A DNA stretch of 64,000 nucleotides from Polytrichum commune (lineage: Eukaryota; Streptophyta; Polytrichopsida; Polytrichales; Polytrichaceae): NCBI GenBank assembly GCA_950295325.1, contig OX485808.1, forward strand, positions 29,904,527 to 29,968,526, written 5' to 3'. Position 1 is the stretch's first letter; every line of letters starts with the position of its first letter. Below are positions 8,961 through 59,505 of the stretch, one piece after another. A program made the translations under genes and the position numbers. The notes under the pieces were generated by a model that worked only from the letters and a program-made list of their open reading frames with translations, did no database searches and had not been told where the DNA came from.

Positions 8961-10800
8961 GAAAAGAAAAAATAACACATGTAGCTAGGTACCGGCATGA
9001 ATGTGAGCCCGTTGACCTAATAATGATCGCGGTTGTCCGTGATGCAACTTAACGTATTTTACCTCTTTGAAGAAGTGGGCTCTAGTGGTGTGTTAGTAGT
9101 ATCCAAATTCATCAAGGTGGGGGGGGGGGGGTGTTTGTTTATTGTCAAATTTTCTTTTGTTTAGGACAAGGTATGTGAGGTATTTGATGGCATTTTGGTG
9201 TATATTTTTCATGAGAGTTTTAATGTTCAATTTTGGGATTTTAAGGTTGGTAGGTTTATCAATTGAGTGTTCATGTATAGCCCCTCCTACTCTAGTTGTG
9301 ATAGTAATGGGGGTTGGTTTTCCAGCCATTGTTTTGTAGGTTGTGAATTAGTGGATCATATTTGGTATGTTTACGTGTGACAGCTTGGTTGGGGAATATG
9401 TCATGATAGTATGTGAATTCAATGAGTTGAACTGTGAGTGTCGGGGAGGGTGCGATTGGTGTTTGTGTTTGGTTCCGGGCTCCTATTATACAGAGGATGT
9501 CTAGCCTTAGTTTAACATGGCATTGGCAGGCTAATTATGAGCATACGCATTTGAGGAGCCACTTTGGGATTGTTTGTTATGGTGGTTTGTTGTTGAAAGT
9601 GTTTGCATTGGTCAATGTGAGGAACCTTGTGTTTTTGTTGGTTTGTAGCGTTTGGGTGATGAGGTGTACTACTTTGTTATGTCGTGCAATTCTTAGGCCT
9701 TTTAAGTATGGGTGTTCACATGTCGATAATAGGTGTGGCCATGTGTCTCTATCATTACTATGGCATTGTGTGAAGTTGGGGTTTTGATGTGTGAGGGGCC
9801 ATAATATATTCTTCTTGTAGTTACCCATGTACTAGGCATATCTGAATTTTGGAGTCTTAGTAATTTGAGCATCCGTCACACTCTCATTTTTCTAGAAGTG
9901 GTTAGAAAGTTTATAATTTATTTGAGTATTGGATAGCCATTTGTTCACGTGTGGGAATTTGTGTTTGGTTGTTATAGATTCTCAATTTCTATGTTCTTCT
10001 GTTGTGAATGTGTGAATGTTGTGGATGGCCCTGTCGTGTGTGGCCGTTGGGTAGCTTGCTAGCCAGTAGGGGTGGGGTGGGTGTGTGTATACGGGGTGTT
10101 GTGGTTGGTTTTTCCTTAAGTACTCTTTCATTGGCTAGTGTATTGGGAATTTCATTTATGGCATTGCATGAATGTGCGCGCACTTTGTGGATGTGGATTA
10201 TGTGTGGGGTCCAATATATTTGTTTTATGACTTCGACTATTAGTAATTTGTTTAGGTGGTGATGTTATGATGTTGGGTGCTGAATGTGGTTATTGATTAA
10301 AAATATGCTATTGAGGCTATATGTAAATATGTACGTGTTTAGTTGGGTATTTTGTGTGGCTTTGATGGCAATGAGTATTGCATTAAGCTCTGTGCGTAGG
10401 ATGTCTTGGTAGCTTGGAAGTCTTTATGATATTTTAATGTTGTTGTTGGGGTTGTATATTCATGATCCGGCCATAATTCCCACTATTTGGCCTTAGGAGT
10501 TTTTGGTGGGTGGGATGAATGATCCATCCGTGTATATGCATTGTTTTGGGCAAACTTTAAGGGGGGTTGGATGTGGTTGTATTTGGATGGTAGTGGGGTT
10601 GTGAGGGTGTTTATAGGGGTGGGGGTTTTTGGTTTTGGGGGCATTTTTCTATGTGTTAGAGAATTTGACAAAGTAGTGTGTGGGGGTAGGTTTGATGGGG
10701 TATGTGTCTATATGGGTGTTGTTTTCTGTAGGACGTTTGTAGTTCATGTGGGGTTTGTAAATTTGATGGGAGGTTTATTTGGTTGTGTATGCATGTTATT
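8950..10800 (-). mobile_element. LINE fragment, 3' part of ORF2 (RNase H to 3' UTR)
   Basis: GT-rich on the plus strand, so it is an inverted copy of the AC-rich LINE. On the minus strand, moving from high to low coordinates: an RNase H remnant (HSSHPPKTPKAK at about 10490-10550, then RAHS..NEI..TLANE at about 10130-10180); a zinc-binding segment with DTWPHLLSTCEHPYLKGLRI (about 9680-9790); the LINE C-terminus (IKTLMKNIHQNAIKYLT, about 9140-9200); and a 3' UTR whose GGGCTCACATTCA segment (about 8990-9010) matches the 3' UTR of the plus-strand copy at 16680-16700. Stops and frameshifts make it non-coding. The 5' end is truncated near 10800. Confidence 0.8.
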
Positions 10801-11090
10801 GTTAGCAATGGTTCTACTCATAAAAAGTAATGACATAAACAATACTTCATACCAAATTTGGGAAATTTGGAAATTTGGAATTATTTCTCTATTGGAAAAT
10901 TTGTTGGCATGAACCACCCAACCACAAGACAAGATTAAAGACCTTTACTCTTGCGCAAGAGCCCTTTACATACCTCCCCACCATGCCCAGTTGTCTTAAG
11001 TTTAATCAAAGTAAAAGCATGTTCATTATCAGCAAATATAATGAACTATGTGTTTTTACTTTAAACTCATTCTAGACTACCTTTATCTTA
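10800..11090. other. Short AT-rich spacer between LINE copies
   Basis: Nothing recognised. It separates the end of the inverted LINE fragment from the start of the plus-strand LINE fragment. Confidence 0.4.
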
Positions 11091-13120
11091 GTTCTAGTCA
11101 ACATGTACCAATAATGGCCCGTGTAACATATATAAAAAAAATCCAAGACAAAATCATATACAACAACTCTAACAACACACAAACACAAACACAACCGATA
11201 CTTCGGACCCACCTCGGCTAGCATACTAGCAACGATACCCAAATTTATACACACAAATGAAAACCTTACCGAAGTCCCAACCCCCAACTCAATATTGCCA
11301 TACCTCCAAGCAATTTTAATCAATAACAAACCCATAACACCCATACTCATTTTAAATATGTACATGCCAACACACCTCCAAGATACACACCTCATACAAA
11401 AAATCCAAAGTCATATCCAAACATTAGTAAATCAACACCCAAAACACCAAACTATCCTAGCATGTGATTTATCGGGACATACTACTAAAGGGCAGATCAT
11501 CCAATGGCATACTATCTCTCCAAACTTAAACAACAATCCTGCACAAGATCACCCATCGCCATAAGACTCTTCCTACTAGAAAGAGAATACAAAATACACA
11601 CCACCACTACAAACCGCGTATTCCCCATCAAAAAGACCCCACTAGAGCAAGCATGGAGATCCAACCCGACATACGCCAACCTCACATATAATGCAAAGAC
11701 AAAATCCCAACAATGCCTAGATAAACTATACACATACGGCATCACAATGCTACCACAAATCCAAAACAAAGAGACTATAGCCATACTAACCCCGGAGTAA
11801 TTCCAAACCACATACAAACACGCGCCCAAAATCATAAAAGATGCATTACAACAAGCCCATTCACTATTCCTTCCCTTGCCAACACTCACACCCCATCGGA
11901 ACCACCCACAAGCAACACAACGCACACCCACAACCATCGCACATGACCTAAACACCCCACCACAACCCATACTAGGGCAAACAATCCACGCCATAATTAA
12001 TGAAAAAACCACCACCAAAAAAGATAATTGGGGGGCGCAAGCCATCAAAAGAAACGTACCTATGCCAATGGCAAACCCCAAGAGGAGCCACACAACAATG
12101 GCGCATAGAGGAAGACCTCTTGCAGCTAGACACATACTACTAGACCACAATTTACTACTTATAACACAATACCATATGAAGGCTCTAAAACAAAAAAAAC
12201 CACCCAAACCTACACTACATACCTCAACCATACCCAAACAAAGGTCAACAAATTCATACACCCCCCACTAAAAATCACCAACCTCAAGTTATCCACACAA
12301 GAGTGCAACCCGGACAAGGATATCCTCACAAATAAACCAACCCTACAAATACAAGATGCAAAGTCCCACATATACGACCAATGCATAAACAACATGGCCA
12401 CCATCACAACAACAAAAACTCCATTAAATATGGAACCGATACTCCCATATTAACCTCCCGCACCTAACCAACTTCCTAAAACCCCAACCACAAGCCTTTA
12501 AAACTGATGAAATATATGGCTTATACAAAGATACATAACTATATTCCCCAAGAAAAAACCAAAAAATATACAACCCAACAACAACCACCATACGCTACAT
12601 CTGGAAATCACCAAACTACTAATAGATCCCTTCAAAAGCATGCGTTCATACTACTCCTCCCCACTTACTTGTCCCATCCAACTCACACAATACAATTCAC
12701 CCCACAGCCATGACATAATATTCGTCTCCTTGGGCCATGTATAATCCTCCAGATGGGAAGGAATAGGCCTAGCGTATCCCACAGACCACAACACAACCCT
12801 AGAAGCCATCCACTAGGCTAGAATGGCAACCAAAGAAGACGCCCACACAATCACCATCCTAATAATCAACCGCAATGACTAGACATCACAACAACTCCCA
12901 ATCACCACACACGTAGACATACATATAATAGCAACCATCCCACCCCACGCTATACATTATGACCCCACACCATAATGGACAAAATACTACAAACGCATAG
13001 AACCATCCTTGACATCAATAATATATGCATACATAACCAAGTAAATCTCACAACAAACTTACAAACCCCACACAAACTACAACAATTCCTAAAGACCACA
13101 ATGAACATACACGTAGACAC
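11090..13120 (+). mobile_element. LINE fragment: endonuclease and RT region, degenerate
   Basis: AC-rich plus-strand LINE sequence. 11295-11480 encodes the endonuclease segment YLQAILINNK, LILNMYMPTHLQDTHLIQKI and ILACDLSGH, colinear with YIQIIHIKNN, LIHMYMPSHEEDTRLIPEI and IICGDFNRD of the copy at 57.2-58.4 kb. The catalytic GDFN box is degraded to CDLSG. Frames then change repeatedly (11504-11800, 11876-12271, 12507-12713) through the region where RT belongs; no intact RT catalytic box was found. The fragment is interrupted at 13120 by a solo LTR and resumes at 14714. Confidence 0.75.
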
Positions 13121-14713
13121 TGTGAGCCCAAAAGCATGTGCCCACATGTGTCTTAAGTTTAGAATTGATTAAGGCTCGAGTTGGGATAGCTTATTATTTT
13201 ATTAAAACATAAAAAGAGTGAAGCTTGGTTCCCGTGGAAAGAATTGAGTTTAAAGTTAGATTGGTGTGGAAGTTATCGTTAATTCCCTGAGAATTGAACC
13301 GTGAGCTTAATTGTTAGGGGGAGAAATTAGGATTAAGGGCGGAGCGATGGTTAGAGGGTTGAATGATTGATGTAGTTTAAAAGGGTTAGCGGGTTAAATG
13401 AGTGATGTTGTTTTTACTGATCTTGGGTTAGTGTATGAAAATTGAACATGCTGGCTTGAACCGGCTTGGGCAAGGGTAGATCAGTTAATTGGCCATTATG
13501 GGCATGGCTACTGGTAGTTTAGGGGTGATGTCACTGTGACCTAGGGAAAGGCGGATCCAGGGAACTAAAGTTCGGTGGCTGGGCCTGTTGCGGCTCCCTT
13601 CTTCGAGTTCATTTCTTTCTTCTTCGACAATAAGGCGAGGGAGGCAGATCCCTTGCGGCTAGCGAGCTCGTAAGGGGGAGAAGGCATAATGTGAGAAAGA
13701 TGGGCTGAGTTTGTGAGCGGTTGAGGAAAGAGGGGTAATGGCTGCAATACCGCAACTTGAGCAAGCCTGGAGGGAGACTCAAGACGTTGTTGTGAGCTCC
13801 AGTTTGCAGGGAGGTCGAGCCTCAGTTTTTGATGTATTTAAGCGATCAATGCTAGGCGGGAGGCTGGGAATTTGAATTCAGGGAAATGCTGCTAACTGAA
13901 ATGGGTAGAGAGTGAAGGCAACGCTGGAAATACCCGACTTTTGCCGCAATCAGGCAGTTAGATTTCTTTTGACCTGCAGAATTCTCACTTAGTTGCAGAC
14001 TGCGCTCTTGGACGCAGCAGTCACGAATCATCTCCGAAGGCAAGCTAAATTGCGCACGTCACATATTGGATGGAAGGTAAAGGTCAGCGCTTGAAGGGGG
14101 ATAGGCTGGGGACTCAAGAGGGGATGGGACCAGGGCATTTCGGCCGCATACCAATAAGGAGGGTGCCGCAGAGCAATGAACAATTCAAGCGAGCAGCAAT
14201 CACCGAACTTCAGACTCAGTGGTGGTCGCTGGAGGGAACCCGTTGCCCATGACGGGCAATGACGGGTGAACATAGGCGGTGAACAACGCAAAATTTCGGG
14301 CAACCTGTTAGGTTATGGTTCTCCGAGGAGGGGTTTTCAAGGACTGGTGACTAGTGGGCATTGGGGAAAGTAGTTAGTTTTGCAAAGGAAGGGGTAGGGA
14401 ACAAGGAAGCGGGGAGAAAAGGGGTGATTTCTAGCCCCCAACCCTACCTTGCTCAATGCATTGGGATTTGGGGAATTAAATGTGGGTAAAAAAATGCAAT
14501 GATCTCAAGTATGGGAACATTAGAGTAGGGATGGAGAGCATTTATCAATGCTTGTATCTCAAGTCTTGAAATAAAATGTTACTTGTGATGTTGCAATGGG
14601 ACGAGTAATTATTGTTGTGCAACCACATTCACAACGCTAAATAGGTAATGTGAGCCACAAGCTCTCACCCGGACTACGACGCATAAGGGTGGGGGTTTAG
14701 GGCTGACAGACAC
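13116..14713 (+). mobile_element. Solo LTR (1588 bp), copy 1
   Basis: The element is 13121-14708, starts TGTGAGCCC and ends GGGCTGACA, with the 5-bp duplication GACAC at 13116-13120 and 14709-14713. It splits one LINE copy into two pieces. No internal LTR pair, PBS or coding region is seen, so it is interpreted as a solo LTR. It is clearly richer in GC than its surroundings (13500-14450). The strand given is arbitrary. A diverged inverted copy lies at 20875-22436. Confidence 0.88.
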
Positions 14714-16800
14714 ATACCCCATTAAACCAAACCCCTCACACACCCATGTTAAATTCTCCGAAGCATGGAAAGATGCCACCAAAACAAACACCCCCATCCC
14801 AATAAACACCCCTACTAGCCAAATACAACCACATCCATCCCCTTAAATACCACCCACAACATTGAATTTACACATATGACACATTTATCCCACCCACCAT
14901 AAACTTTGAAGGCCAAATAGAGGGCAATACAACCATATCAAGAATCTATAACCCCAACAACAACACACAAATAGCAGAGTGATTCCCAAGCTACCAAAAC
15001 ATCTTGCAAGCATGACTTAACACAATACTCATTGCTATCAAAACCTTACAAACCACCCAACTAAACATACGCATATTTACAAACAACCTAAATATCATAT
15101 TCTTAATCAACAATCACATACATCACCCGACATCCCAACATCATCACCCCAAAAAACTAATAATACCAGCAATTGTACACAAAATATACTAGACCCCACA
15201 CACAATTCACATCCATAACGTACGCGACACTCGGGCATTACTGGAAATGAAATAGTTGACACACTAGCCAACAAAGGAATACTTAAAGAAAAACCGACCA
15301 CCACCCCACACATACACACGGCTCCCTACTAGCTAGCAAGTTGCCCAACAACTACACATGATGGAGCCATCGCAACCTTCGCACATTCGTAGCAAAAGAA
15401 CACGGAAATTGTGAAACTGAAACAACCAAAACCAAATTCCCATACATGGACAAATGGTTATCCAACACTCAAATAAACCAAAAACTCTCCAACCACTTTT
15501 GGAAAAATGAAAACGTAACAGATGCCCAAATCACCCAAAAGTTCAAATTCAGATACGCACAATACGTGGGTAGCCACATGATGAATATATGTTGGCCCCT
15601 TACACATCAAAACCCCAATTGCACATTGTGTTAGCACAATGACAAAGACACATGGCTCCCTGCTAGCTAGCAAGTTGCCCAACAACTACACATGATGAAG
15701 CCATCGCAACCTTCGCACATTCGTAGCAAAAGAACACGGAAACTGTGAAACTGAAACAACCAAAACCAAATTCCCATACATGGACAAATGGTTATCCAAC
15801 ACTCAAATAAACCAAAAACTCTCCAACCACTTTTGGAAAAATGGAAACGTAACAGATGCCCAAATCACCCAGAAGTTCAAATTCGGATACGCACAATACG
15901 TGGGTAGCCACATGATGAATATCTGCTGGCCCCTTACACATCAAAACCCCAATTGCACATTGTGTTAGCACAATGACAAAGACACATGGCCCCACCTTCT
16001 ATCAACATGCGAACACCCATACTTAAAAGGCCTAAGAATCACACGACACAATAAAGGAGTACACCTCATTACACTACAAGCTAACAAAAACACCCGGTTC
16101 TTCACATTGATCAATGCAGGCAACCTTAACAACAAACCACCCAAACAAACAATCCTAGACTAGTTATTTAAGTGTACATGTTCCCAAATAATATGCCTAT
16201 GCCAAGCCAAATTACGACCAAACATTCTATGCATAATCGGCGTACCAAACCACACACAAATACCAATATCACCCTCCCCCACACTCACAATCCAACTCAT
16301 TGAATTCACATATTGTCACGATAGATACCCCGATCATGCCCTCACACACAAACACATTAAATACGACCCTCTAATCAAAACCTTACAAAACAATGGATGG
16401 AAAACCAACTTCCTCATTACCATCACAATTGGAGTTAGAGGCACCATACACAAACACTCCATTAACAAACTTAACAATCTAAAACTCCCAAAACCAACCA
16501 TTAAAACCCTCATGAAGAATATACACCAAAATGCCATCAAATACCTCACAAGCCTCGTCCTAAACACAAGAAAACTTGAAAACAAACAAATTGCCCCCCC
16601 ACCCCAAACACGCACACAATGAAATGGGAAAACATATACAAACACATGAGTCCACTCACGGACAACCGTGATCAGCACTAGGTTAATGGGCTCACATTCA
16701 CGCCAACACCTAGTTACGGGCGTTACTTTTTCTTTTTCTTTTTTGTGTTGTTGGATTTGGAATATGTGCATAGTATGTAGAGATCTTTATATGCTTTGTA
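14714..16800 (+). mobile_element. LINE fragment continued: RNase H, zinc segment, 3' end
   Basis: Continuation of the LINE broken at 13120. An RNase H domain is readable across frames (INFEGQIEGN, NPNNNTQIAE near 14890-14980; HSGITGNEIVDTLANKGI near 15230-15290, which contains the conserved GNE.AD.LA-type motif). It is followed by MDKWLSNTQINQKL, a zinc segment with NPNCTLC and DTWPHLLSTCEHPYL, the C-terminus ending near 16620, and the 3' UTR (about 16650-16750). A 334-bp tandem duplication lies inside (15320-15987). Several stops make it non-functional. RNase H downstream of RT in an endonuclease-bearing LINE is known for the I/Ingi-type groups. Confidence 0.8.
15320..15987 (+). repeat. 334-bp tandem duplication within the LINE
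   Basis: 15320-15653 is repeated at 15654-15987 with few differences (for example ACTAGC/GCTAGC at the start, GATGGAGCC/GATGAAGCC). Both copies begin GGCTCCCT and contain the MDKWLSNTQINQKL frame (15446 and 15780). The high identity says the duplication is younger than the LINE insertion. Confidence 0.92.
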
Positions 16801-54190: not shown

Positions 54191-54841
54191 TGAGACAGTT
54201 TTTTGAGCGCTGAGACTCCTCGGTACACTGGGAGTAAGACGTCGAACACTTAGGAGAAACCGTAGTTGATTCACTGCTGAAGGACAAGACCAACCAGTGT
54301 TGGGAGAAGGTGTTGGGGAGCTGCAATCAACGAAGGAGCTGCTAGAGAAGTAATCGAATCTGAAGCTGCGAGCTGATGGAGCTGCGACATAATTCAGAAT
54401 TGTTAAAGGCTCACTACACCACGGAAATCCACCTCATCATCAACTAGGTAAGCTTTGAAACACGTAACTAGGTCTTATTCATTTAAAACTTGCACTTAGG
54501 CACACACAAACATAGCATTAGGCACATAGAATTGCTAGATATTTGTTAGGGTAGAAAAAAAGAATGAAGGGTGCATGTGCAAACAACCTTGTTCTCATTC
54601 TTTGGCTATTGCTAGCCACGCCATATTGGAGAAACTCCCACAGTGTCAACTCTCACAACCCATGGGAATGCCTTGTACAAACTTGTTTCAAAAATGCATA
54701 TAAAAATGTAACATCAAAACAATTAGTAAGGTATGACGCGAATAATGTTCACCTTTTTTTTAACAACAAAAGTAACATTATCTAATACATAGTAACAACA
54801 ACCATAGCAAAAAACATAACGTAGGATCTTATCTCTCTAGA
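54191..54841 (+). other. Leader-like stretch before LINE ORF1
   Basis: No strong signal. A small frame at 54564-54785 (MKGACANNLVLILWLLLATPYW start) begins with a hydrophobic stretch like a signal peptide and has two cysteines, but the AT-rich context and the following LINE make a real secreted peptide doubtful. Confidence 0.3.
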
Positions 54842-56643
54842 ATGTATGCAAACTACTCCTTCTCTACTACCAACCATCACACATGCCCATCAATTAAGTG
54901 GTGGGAAGATGTTGGTTATGAGGCCCAAAGGAGTAACTTTTTATTAAACACTACAAAAACCCCTGAAAACATCTCCTTAAAAATCTATTCTAAAAACCTT
55001 CTCTATGATGCTTTACACAGGTTCAAATACATGGCTGAAGCTAGTTCCACAAGGAATATGGATGTATGTGTGGTTGAAGAAAATGAAATCATAAACACCT
55101 CACAAAAAAGAACCACATCAGCCCTAGTAACAATCACTCAGAAAAAAACTAAAAGTAAGAAAAGTCTAGGACCGAACGGTTTGTCTTTGTGGCTAGGGTT
55201 CCAAGCCCTAAATCTCATCAACAAACAAAAAGAATTACCCCTAGAAAGTGTGGAAACAACGAGAGAGTTAATGAAAAATGGAATAGATTTTGATGAAGCA
55301 AAGGGAATGCAAAATGCACAACCCTCATTTCCATATGTCCCTCAGTTCGAGTGGCCCTCCAAAAGGGAGGATGGAATTAAAGGACAACACTTCAATCTCA
55401 CCCAACTACCATTTGATGTGGAGGTGGATGAGAATGGATTTTCTTTTGACTACCAAGTATCAATCCATTTTGAACTCAAAGAAATAAAATGGGAGAAAGA
55501 TATAATGATATAATCATGAACAAAGTCAAGGAAAGATTAGCCACAATGAACATAAAAACCGGGGACTTGATTGGTGAACCCATAGCTATCATGTGCTACC
55601 ACAAATCCACCACATGGAGTGGAACAATCAAAATCCATCTTGAGAATCCAGTAGTTGATGCAAGAAGTCTACTCCAAGGAACTAAGGCCTTCATACTAAC
55701 TCTAGATGAAGAAAAATCTTGGAGAAGAAAAATGTACAAATCTTACGATATGCTAGCATTGAATAATCTTCTCTCAGTAAAAATCTCTAGTGATACATTG
55801 ATTGGCAAAGAATGGTTCAACATCTTCGAAGAGGTAGTAAATGAAGGCTTTAACCGCAAATATGACTATGAGGTAATTAATATCTAAAAAATAAAATAAA
55901 ATGAATTTTGCATGGATAGTAGCAACATCTCCGGAACAAGCAAAGAAGATTAGTACCTATAAGATATCACTCCACAACGAAATCATGGATACCAAATTCA
56001 CATCAAGAGACAAACTCACGGAAGATGATAAAGCAAGAAAAAATGCACTCATCCTCATAATAAGAAACCTAATCAAAGTCAAGAGTCAGATGAAATCAAA
56101 TATGAAATTAAAAAACACAAGGGAGAAAAAAATATAATCAACATCTTTTTTTAAATTAAAAATGATAAGCATGTGGGGAGTTGCAATGTTCAGTGCCTAA
56201 AAGCGGCAGTATATAAGAAATTCGTAAAGGAAAATGCAAAATTCCTTGGTAAATATGTAGAATTCACCCCACACCCCAAAAGTTTAGATAGTATCAACGC
56301 ACCATCACAAATATAACTTACCAGACTCGGCTTCTTAGATGTAAATACAGCTCTAGCAAATACGGTGGAGGCCTTGGAAAACGCACCCTCCAACGGGCTA
56401 ACAAAGCAAGAAGTAAAAATAATGTTGGAAGGAGAAAACGCAAAATTACACGAAGAAATGGCGGAGAGAGAAGAAAATGCATATCGGAGAGGGACTACAT
56501 ACACCGACAAGTCCATGAAATCTATTGCAGCCCAGCTCAAAATCTTCAAGAAACAACTACTCACAGTAGTAGACTACATCGAAAGCGTAGCAAAAGACTC
56601 GGAAGGTGCACCCCATGACAACAACATGGACATGTCAAACTAA
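54842..56643 (+). pseudogene. LINE ORF1 remnant (frameshifted)
   Basis: A series of plus-strand frames continue one another through shifts: 54842-55513 (223 aa), 55489-55887 (132 aa; MGERYNDIIMNKVKERL, TKAFILTLDEEKSWRRKMYKS), 55901-56137, and 56365-56643 (lysine/glutamate-rich, likely coiled coil: LTKQEVKIMLEGENAKLHEE). Position just upstream of an endonuclease-bearing ORF2, same strand and same base bias make it the first ORF of the LINE. No zinc knuckle or RRM was recognised, so the nucleic-acid-binding fold is not established. The overlap at 55489-55513 is a simple one-base shift. Confidence 0.6.
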
Positions 56644-57042
56644 TAGGCATACACAACGACCCGGACATTAAAGATGAAAATATAATAGTATATTTCAATA
56701 CTCTAAGAAAACACACAAAAAACAATAAGGTATTTATAAGTACCACCAAAAAAATAGAATTTTTTTACTCCAAAACACAAAAAACTAATATCATTAAAAA
56801 AAATACAAAACTAATCCTAAAATAATCAAAACAAAAAAAGACATAAACACAAAAGATATATATCAAACTAAAGACCCTAAAAACGAAACTTTCAAACACA
56901 AAAAACCAAAAAAATACACAAAATCCATACCATACGGGGGACCAAAAAACACAAATCTAAGACAACATACACAACTAACCTAACCCAACAAAAAAACAAA
57001 AACCTACATAACATTATACATATAAAACTACTAAAATGCGGA
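56644..57042 (+). other. A-rich spacer between LINE ORF1 and ORF2
   Basis: Very A-rich plus strand with no frame. In the frame of the downstream 2A-like motif the sequence reads LHNIIHIKLLKCG immediately before it. Confidence 0.5.
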
Positions 57043-57066
57043 GATATATAATCAAACCCGGGGCCT
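57043..57066 (+). other. 2A-like motif DI-stop-SNPGP
   Basis: GAT ATA TAA TCA AAC CCG GGG CCT reads D-I-stop-S-N-P-G-P. Everything matches the 2A consensus D(V/I)ExNPGP except that the Glu codon is TAA. It is followed directly by MPNILKKHPP, homologous to FTHILKNIPQ after the motif at 8883-8906. Confidence 0.75.
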
Positions 57067-59505
57067 ATGCCCAATATATTGAAAAAACATCCACCGGCAC
57101 ATAGGCGGAGAGCCAAAACATACTTCATACCATGTACTATAAAACTCCACCCAGAATACCAACACATTACACAAAGTTTCTCCCCACTACTAAAAATAAA
57201 CCACCCTAACCACAACAATGCCTCTAGAACATCTCCCAACCTCTCAATATATATTACCCAAAAAAAAACAATTTCCAACACCAAATATATTATTTGCCTT
57301 AATCACAACACTAAGCCCAGACATAAACGCATGTGAACACCTCATTCAAAACTTAAACCCAGATTGGCCCTCAATACTCCTAAACAAACTAAACTCTCTA
57401 AGAAACCCCCCCGAAAGACATATTCACACTATACACCCACATACCAAACTCATACAAGATAACCAAAACTTAATAAACCCTCCACTCACCATACATAAAA
57501 ATATCTATAAGTTTATACATCAAAACGCTAATCCACCAAACCCCCAAACACTTAAAGATAAATATCCATATTTACCTCCAAACTTTCTTAAAGAAACACT
57601 AAAGATATTTGAACCCCTTACCGAATATACACACCCCCCACTTACACCACCACCACCCCCACCCCGGCCACCACAAACAGGACAAAACACCAACCACCAC
57701 ACACAAATCATCACATGGAATGCCTCATCATTAAGCACAACATTACCTAGCATACAAAACCTCATTCACCACTCGCACGAAATACCTGCCATAATCATCA
57801 TACAAGAAATTAAATGGACATCAACCAAATCTACTAAATACATTCAAAATCTATTCTCACAATATAAATTAATTTTTAATAACACTCACGCGTTAACCAG
57901 ATGCATCCAGCAAAGAATGCCGTATACCCCTCCTAGAGGCGGGTTTCTCACACTCATACACAAAAAGTATGCATTCCAAGGAAACATTACCAAAATACCC
58001 TCCCCGGCCAGCATATCACCATACATACAAATCATCCACATAAAGAACAACCCACTTCAACCATGGCCATTAATACACATGTACATGCCATCACATGAAG
58101 AAGACACTAGACTAATCCCCGAAATAATGCATACCATCAATATACAAATAACTGCATACCCGAATCACACACATATAATATGTGGAGACTTTAATAGAGA
58201 CATTGCACTAATAGGTAGGCAGAATGAACAAGGTACCACCCCCCCTCAAGAAGAAGATATTAGATGGAGAACATACACCAATAATTTACTACTTTCCTAT
58301 ATCCCTACTAATACAACGTACTCTAGGCAAAGAGGAGGCCGGGGATTCGTGGCACTCAAGTAAAATCATCTGTGCGGATGAAAAAAACACATGAATCATC
58401 TAAATGGCTATTTTTGGGCAATTTTATTCCGGAAATAGAGTCAAAGGCCCCGAATTAGTCTAGTGACGTCACATTCGAATGAATCGGCCCTCAACCCCAT
58501 AGGGGGGCTTTTTTTATTGGAGCCACTTCATCCACGATATCTTGGATGGATGATTTTACTTGAGTGCCACGAATCCCCAGCCCAAAGAGGACTCAACTAT
58601 ACAAACATACAACATGCAACAACATACACATCAATCACACTCCAAGATCAAAACCTTAACTCCGACCATCTACCGGTCATCCTAAAAGTACCACCAAACA
58701 CCCTAATAGCTAGAATAACACAACCCCCACTACCCCTAAAAAACAGAATTATGAACCCCATCCCACAAGAAAACCTCGACAAATTCAACACCAAGTTTTT
58801 TGAAGAAAATGCAATCCAACTAAATGAAATACTCACATTACTATCTAACAATCAACTAACAAAAGAACAATGGCACATGGCATCTACACAAATGGACAAC
58901 ATCACGAGAAAAATCTCAAAAACTATAGAAGAAACATGTAATACCACACCTATACCCACATTAACTAACAGGACCAATCAACAAGGAGGGTACCTTCCCA
59001 GAAAAATCCAAAAAATATGGAAAAAACATATATCCAGCTATCACCTAATAAGAAAAACAATATACATTGTAAAAAATACAATAAATTGGCGCACACACCC
59101 TATAATTAACACGTTAGAGAGGCACAATCACATACGCATACCCTCCCCACCTGAAAATAACCTACAACTAAACGAATGGATAAAAGAAATAGCAACATTA
59201 GCCAAAGTAGCAAACTTACAAGCTGAAAAAATCACAACCAAATATACTAAAGACTGTATTAAGAAAGCCATATCCAAATACAGAAAACTATATGAAACAA
59301 GCCCCAAAAAAATAAATAAAAGAGTATTCAAAAACTTAGAGAGTCCGACACTAGATTGTATCACAGACCGAAATAATAATATACTCACTAACCCAGAAGA
59401 CATAGCAAATGAAATACATATACAACAATCTATCAGCAACAGACCCACAGTTCCCACATGTTACTACTTACCAGACCACCCCCCATAATGTACGTGTGCA
59501 GTAAG
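57067..59505 (+). pseudogene. LINE ORF2: endonuclease and post-endonuclease region
   Basis: Starts after the 2A-like motif (57067 frame), shifts by one base in about 57200-57300 into the 57218 frame, and runs through a proline-rich linker into an APE-type endonuclease. Motifs: TWNASSL (about 57716), IIQEIKWTSTKST, MYMPSHEEDTRLIPEI, ICGDFNRDI (about 58180) and, beyond the MITE, LNSDHLPVI (about 58658). All catalytic boxes are present. Removing the 246-bp MITE and one 9-bp duplication joins SRQRG to LNYTN in frame. After the endonuclease comes a helical region (ENLDKFNTKFFEENAI, DCIKKAISKYRKLYE) that precedes RT in LINEs. The copy is cut at 59505 by the CACTA element, so RT, RNase H and the 3' end should lie beyond the window. 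Confidence 0.85.
58328..58591. mobile_element. 246-bp Mutator-like MITE in the LINE endonuclease
   Basis: The element is 58337-58582. Terminal inverted repeats of 34 bp match with one mismatch: GGCCGGGGATTCGTGGCACT.. at the left and the complement of GGCTGGGGATTCGTGGCACT.. at the right. The 9-bp target duplication CAAAGAGGA is perfect (58328-58336 and 58583-58591). Nine-base duplications with long inverted ends are typical of Mutator-like elements. No coding capacity; it needs a transposase supplied from elsewhere. Confidence 0.93.

Follow-up and report, generated by a model that had tools for sequence, protein, structure and literature searches.

The moss Polytrichum commune carries a large, Dualen/RandI-like family of LINEs in which a StopGo/2A ribosome-skipping signal is very probably encoded near the N-terminus of ORF2. 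We take this to be a real 2A sequence, abundant and under selection in LINEs of the plant lineage, and dead in the copy that lies in the window, i.e., the whole 64,000-nucleotide stretch of DNA analyzed here. In that copy, the frame at 56989-57201 reads NIIHIKLLKCGDI, a stop and then SNPGPMPNILKKHPPAHRRR, within which positions 57028-57096 encode LLKCGDI-stop-SNPGP followed by MPNILKKHPP, just as the first-pass annotation of this DNA had read it. By frame reading, the hydrophobic run IKLLKC (57022-57039, forward strand, as are all features of this copy) precedes the 2A core GDI-stop-SNPGP (57040-57066), which was also delimited by the alignment of copies. The Cys and Gly codons begin at 57037 and 57040, respectively, the TAA that had been seen to replace the Glu codon at p14 occupies 57049-57051, NPGP occupies 57055-57066, and the subsequent Met lies at 57067.

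The remainder of the window copy is that of a degraded element. A decayed ORF1 with broken frames (54555-56640) is recovered by tblastn with the ORF1 of L039, another locus of this genome, at 64-79% identity in pieces, and is followed by a decayed, 3'-cut ORF2 (56619-59503; tblastn pieces of L039 ORF2, 54-67% identity). Beyond the 2A core, this ORF2 comprises a post-2A domain that starts with MPNILKKHPP (57067-57709, ends approximate) and the APE endonuclease domain that had been placed downstream of the motif (57710-58225; Pfam Exo_endo_phos, PF03372, 25.0 bits against a cut-off of 24.5). It is then interrupted by a MITE-like insert with 34-nucleotide inverted ends (58337-58582; found by repeat search, arms 97% complementary), in the region of which the tblastn match to L039 ORF2 stops at 58354 and continues from 58598. 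The copy ends at about 59503, ahead of the RT core. It is a dead member of the family, with a stop inside the core and an ORF2 both interrupted and cut short. The RNase H and zinc segment once ascribed to this copy are absent from it; such domains are found instead at 9394-16328 of the window, in what remains of related LINEs. These remnants lie on both strands, match at 31-43% identity in pieces and hold endonuclease, PCIF1-like, RNase H and C-terminal parts. An Rfam search of the window gives no match at the gathering score.

The stop in the core and the truncated, interrupted ORF2 could be read as signs that the match arose by chance in a pseudogene undergoing decay. For the family, this reading is refuted by simulation and by genome-wide counts, and we accord it a negligible probability; it holds only for the present function of the window copy. 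In a six-frame scan of the window, NPGP occurs once, at the LINE motif, and 60 simulated windows (first-order Markov) contain on average 0.63 NPGP and 0.0 D(V/I)xxNPGP. A codon-blind search of the assembly (407.8 Mb in 64 contigs, C1-C7 making up 99.6%) for any spelling of GD(V/I)ExNPGP recovers 135 + 121 = 256 sites in the 408 Mb genome, against 0 + 0 for the reversed pattern used as a control. The junction itself, when searched as DNA, has at least 40 matches (200 candidates at first look) distributed over all seven large contigs. Among the 30 loci analyzed, the junction is present in 29 and GDIExNPGP is encoded in 22; the other eight are the window copy with its p14 stop, EDIESNLGP, two with NPGL, GDIKSNPRP, GDIELNP-stop-P, EDIETNPGP and one without the junction. 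The closest sister of the window copy lies on the same contig at a distance of 0.62 Mb; its p14 codon is GAA and, like most other copies, it retains the core. The first-pass annotation had stipulated that a family consensus lacking Glu or Gly, or an NPGP that varies among copies, would mark the match as chance; the consensus has both residues, NPGP is conserved, and the p14 codon in the 29 aligned copies is GAA in 27, TAA in the window copy and AAA in one.

Over these 29 copies, the 11-codon core shows a dN/dS of 0.06 at a pS of 0.69, as against 0.61 for the eight codons before it, 0.20 for the 13 after it and 0.27 for the next 36. Hence, the core is selected as protein. Pro at p17 and Gly at p18 are each spelled with all four of their codons, and the one core position that varies freely (S/T/L/P) is p15, which corresponds to the x of the published motif.

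The first 30 of the 256 sites in genome order, all on C1, were sampled for their context, and all belong to one LINE group. The post-2A domain, which is duplicated in tandem-2A relatives, follows every one of them, and an endonuclease lies within the 1.5 kb examined at 28 (the exceptions being L048 and L067). Positions p6-p9 are LIVMF in 66% of cases, compared with 28% further upstream; the residue before the p11 Gly is Cys in 21, Ser in six, Gly in two and His in one; and p15 is Thr, Pro, Ser, Leu or one of several others. One upstream hexapeptide contains a stop. Such hexapeptides as ELLKCG, LILLSG and LLLLCG resemble the LLLLSG class of published StopGo sequences, for which a passage of PMC12846837 states that Leu-rich upstream motifs ending in (A/S/C)G accompany D at p12 and S at p15. 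The family thus displays both the StopGo core (D/G/C/N)(V/I)ExNPGP, which the window copy lacks owing to its stop at p14, and the upstream context of about six residues, which matches the LLLLSG class.

A hydrophobic run ahead of the core would also suit a peptide conserved for some other job, such as that of a signal or binding peptide at the N-terminal end of ORF2, with no skipping or with both functions combined. There is a precedent for the combination in the N-terminal 2A-like sequences of sea-urchin NLRs, described in a portion of PMC4981915 as both signal sequence and 2A. We nevertheless regard this explanation as very improbable: it is the StopGo core residues that are constrained, x being free, and the substitutes at p14 are mainly Gln and His, which PMC12846837 reports as partly active or active. 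When p14 is left free in the genome-wide search, 230 + 195 = 425 sites are recovered, again with none in the control, and the 100 of these that were listed have E in 59, Q in 20, H in 14, K in five and R and Y in one each. Gln or His thus accounts for 34 of the 41 non-Glu residues, whereas plain decay of GAA would be expected to lead to Lys, Gly, Asp and stops, with His requiring two changes. According to PMC12846837, a natural His at p14 has over 95% activity, and E14Q mutants are cited there as having 56% or 26%.

These variants are concentrated in tandem arrays. Taking as clustered any site less than 2 kb from another on the same strand, the 94 sites of C1 fall into 26 clustered sites in 12 groups (p14 H 12, Q 11, E 1, R 1, Y 1) and 68 lone ones (E 53, Q 9, K 4, H 2). 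The two distributions differ at a Fisher p of 2e-11, to be read with the proviso that the sites are not independent events because the copies are related. Distances between neighbors on C1 are divisible by three in 13 of 14 cases (p = 6e-6 under an expectation of 1/3, assuming independent pairs, though the copies are related). We examined four arrays chosen for their tandem look, three of the 12 on C1 and one on C2: L076 has two 2As with E and E at p14, L077 has three with Q-H-Q, L079 has two with Q and H, and L078 (660-1661) has four 2A-like sites in one open frame, namely Q, E with Arg instead of Gly at p11, Y and H. None of the four has a stop between its first and last 2A, the frame being maintained across 62-267 codons, and the repeated unit consists of the 2A and the domain following it. 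Among the relatives, P0137, P0143, P0145 and P0147 have two 2A-like sites each, the first of them degenerate in P0145.

Codon-level selection on the core and its flanks, together with the 13 of 14 neighboring sites that are in frame, suggests that the 2A of the family lies inside a translated frame. We propose that the ribosome would translate a Lys/Asn/Pro-rich ORF2 leader, of about 80-95 residues where an upstream ATG is recognizable, and reach LLxCGDIExNPG, where the Gly-Pro bond would not be formed and the leader would be released by the putative skipping. Translation would then resume at Pro-Met to give the post-2A domain, APE, RT, PCIF1-like domain, RNase H and CCHC/RLE-like region. In one sublineage, the unit of 2A plus post-2A domain occurs two to four times over within a single open frame, often with His or Gln for Glu, so that one ORF would give several short proteins in addition to the polymerase. 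The sequence, number and position of the sites, their selection at the codon level and the in-frame arrays are what the data show; the skipping, the start codon and the roles of the leader and the repeated units are what we infer. A more far-reaching version of this proposal, to which we give even odds, is that ORF2 of these plant-lineage LINEs is a StopGo polyprotein with arrays of up to four units of 2A plus small domain, in which the p14 residue (Glu, His or Gln) could set the skip frequency at each bond, such that one mRNA might yield repeated small proteins, fusions and polymerase in graded amounts.

The leader bears on where ORF2 begins. A recognizable ATG lies 85-94 codons before the 2A in some subfamilies; in some copies the open frame ahead of the 2A contains no ATG, and in others the open stretch there is very short. 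Many copies are decayed, and no copy intact over its full length was seen among those examined. The copies devoid of an upstream in-frame ATG could mean that ORF2 starts at the ATG right after NPGP and that the motif belongs to an untranslated leader, its likeness to 2A being incidental. In keeping with such a start, Met follows NPGP in 28 of the 30 sampled sites, and seven of the 32 relatives found with the N-terminal region (see below) are gene calls beginning exactly at this Met. Yet the amino acids of the core are conserved while its codons vary freely, the arrays hold their frame, Met is absent in lineages that keep the 2A (L050, L072, L076 and Haematococcus), and the leader is itself constrained as protein, four between-subfamily comparisons giving a dN/dS of 0.30-0.44 and two within-subfamily ones 0.20 and 0.03. 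We therefore consider a start after NPGP very improbable and favor translation through the 2A.

The more complete elements point to a classification other than the L1Tc/Ingi-like domain order suggested by the first-pass annotation. An ORF1 of 688 amino acids (stop to stop) lies upstream of the ORF2 frame in L039, and one of at least 589 amino acids is seen in L040; ORF1 matches no Pfam family at E 0.01. Read in pieces, the ORF2 of L039 contains APE (PF03372, 22.9 bits, under the cut-off of 24.5), RT (1.1e-29) and a PCIF1-like domain (PF12237, 35.6 bits, cut-off 31.1). The relatives P0002 and P0006, at 82% and 58% identity to the L039 ORF, respectively, contain RNase H by Pfam (PF00075), and the corresponding segment in the moss genome was recognized by eye only. 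A C-terminal CCHC cluster with RPDIL...E is present in L045 of the moss genome, and the CCHC, PDIL and E are invariant over five aligned proteins; this region has no Pfam or PDB match, and a PDB search with P0006 for the C-terminal domain returns RNase H only, at E up to 1. Among solved structures, the RT matches R2 best (4.6e-33), with chains named LINE-1 ORF2 at 9.6e-20. According to an excerpt of PMC4640811, Dualen is the group in which APE and RLE occur together, and RNase H is listed for Dualen/RandI. Given the separate ORF1, the RT nearest to R2 and the C-terminal CCHC plus RPDIL...E, all as expected for Dualen/RandI, the element looks Dualen/RandI-like with a putative RLE. Membership in L1Tc/Ingi is rejected by the separate ORF1 of L039 and L040 and by the RT.

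As a separate observation, the PCIF1-like domain sits between RT and RNase H in L039 (5915-9517, residues 915-1005 of the ORF), P0002, P0006, P0037, P0039 and P0111. PCIF1 is an m6Am methyltransferase, and in the LINE domain the place of the NPPF motif reads HPNN in the moss copy and P0002, and NPEY, SPPF or HPPF in some relatives. The best matches of our PMC literature searches included no PCIF1-like domain in a LINE.

Searches with the moss proteins extend the 2A to other genomes. The N-terminal region retrieves 32 proteins, of which 24, from ENA/JGI, cover the 2A site: 18 have a canonical core, four have His, one Gln and one NPDP. The eight remaining are the seven that start at the Met and one without the landmark. 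The RT side retrieves 193 proteins; among the 120 listed, the named relatives include proteins of Haematococcus, Parachlorella, Pleodorina and, at a much lower level of similarity, the beetle Coccinella. A further search with an ORF of the chlorophyte Haematococcus gives 26 proteins, all from Haematococcus lacustris, 22 of which have (A/C/G)GD(V/I)ExNPGP. A Josephin (deubiquitinase) domain is listed for 23 of these 26 LINE ORFs (P0096, P0151-P0175), and P0156 and P0165 combine 2A, Josephin, APE, RT and RNase H. The 2A may not be general in the wider RT group, as it is lacking in 15 of the 18 RT-side proteins that have at least 300 residues ahead of the GD(F/L/W/I)N motif of the endonuclease; six of these 15 are shorter in this region than P0034, in which 380 residues lie between 2A and motif, and so may start after the 2A. 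In a tree of 26 RT domains (19 labeled rows and every fifth unlabeled one, of 50 with a readable RT core), the 2A label requires six changes against a shuffled mean of 6.5, 232 of the 500 shuffles needing no more than six, and of the 23 inner branches 13 are open; with label changes no fewer than shuffled, the tree is compatible with one origin of the 2A as well as with several. The plant-lineage host assumed for the LINE at the outset is supported by matches to the LEAFY SAM domain, LEAFY being to our knowledge confined to streptophytes: four genome loci (L041-L044) exceed the cut-off, against none in 14 control genomes, and the best matches the solved GINLFY protein (4ude) at 1e-33.

A 2A upstream of an APE endonuclease in a LINE is of a known kind. 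In L1Tc, a 2A lies near the N-terminus of an ORF with APE, RT and RNase H, and there is no separate ORF1. The moss element shares the 2A near the ORF N-terminus, upstream of APE, but differs in its host from the green (plant) lineage, separate ORF1, R2-nearest RT, PCIF1-like domain, RLE-like C-terminus and 2A arrays. Odon et al. reportedly described 2As in 2013 in animal APE-type LINEs of the Rex1, Crack, L2, L2A, CR1 and Ingi clades, and are said to have linked them to one-ORF elements. These too have the 2A upstream of the APE endonuclease, unlike the present group, which is Dualen/RandI-like, belongs to the green lineage and has ORF1 and 2A coexisting. The trypanosome case goes back to Heras et al. 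2006 on L1Tc/Ingi non-LTR retrotransposons (cited in portions of PMC11512398 and PMC5972666). Viral StopGo sequences with Leu-rich motifs 2 and 6, as presented in a section of PMC12846837, likewise have (A/S/C)GDIExNPGP after a Leu-rich run, with His or Gln at p14 occurring or tolerated, and several 2As per ORF are known in picornaviruses from an excerpt of PMC11512398; the moss 2A differs in being carried by a plant-lineage retrotransposon. Green-algal Dualen/RandI elements resemble it in lineage and in uniting APE, RNase H and an RLE-like signature in one element, but the passages on them in PMC4640811 and PMC3747384 mention neither a 2A nor a PCIF1-like domain. The best matches of open-licence PMC searches did not include any 2A from a LINE of plants or green algae, which is weak evidence of absence. 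As far as these searches show, a LINE 2A has no earlier description from this host lineage or element group, alongside an ORF1, or in tandem arrays with His/Gln at p14.

StopGo functions in plants when engineered in, and a 2026 survey finds no evidence of its natural use in plant viruses and describes its cellular use as rare (both from passages of PMC12846837). If the polyprotein reading is true, the family would be the first case of StopGo used naturally in plants, and its p14 variants would form a natural series acting on plant ribosomes. The hundreds of sites suggest, for elements of the plant lineage, a way of splitting proteins that has been described mostly in animal viruses and in the transposons of trypanosomes and animals, and they make the age and spread of eukaryotic StopGo testable outside animals, trypanosomes and their viruses. 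The family is also a source of 2As evolved in the plant lineage, and its His/Gln arrays can test the structural model of the mechanism.

Finally, a GC-rich stretch, approximately GCTCGGCCTACCGGCCTCGCC, marks the start of the ORF2 leader in L039 (at 3574) and is repeated in L040 (at 2166, 2796 and 3768). It also occurs in L024, L026, L027, L029-L034 and L036-L038, being out of frame or without an ATG in L024, L029 and L037, and is not matched exactly anywhere in the window. Across subfamilies, its first 10 codons are free of synonymous change, with pS elsewhere at 0.48-0.82, and it has the look of an element acting at the RNA or DNA level.
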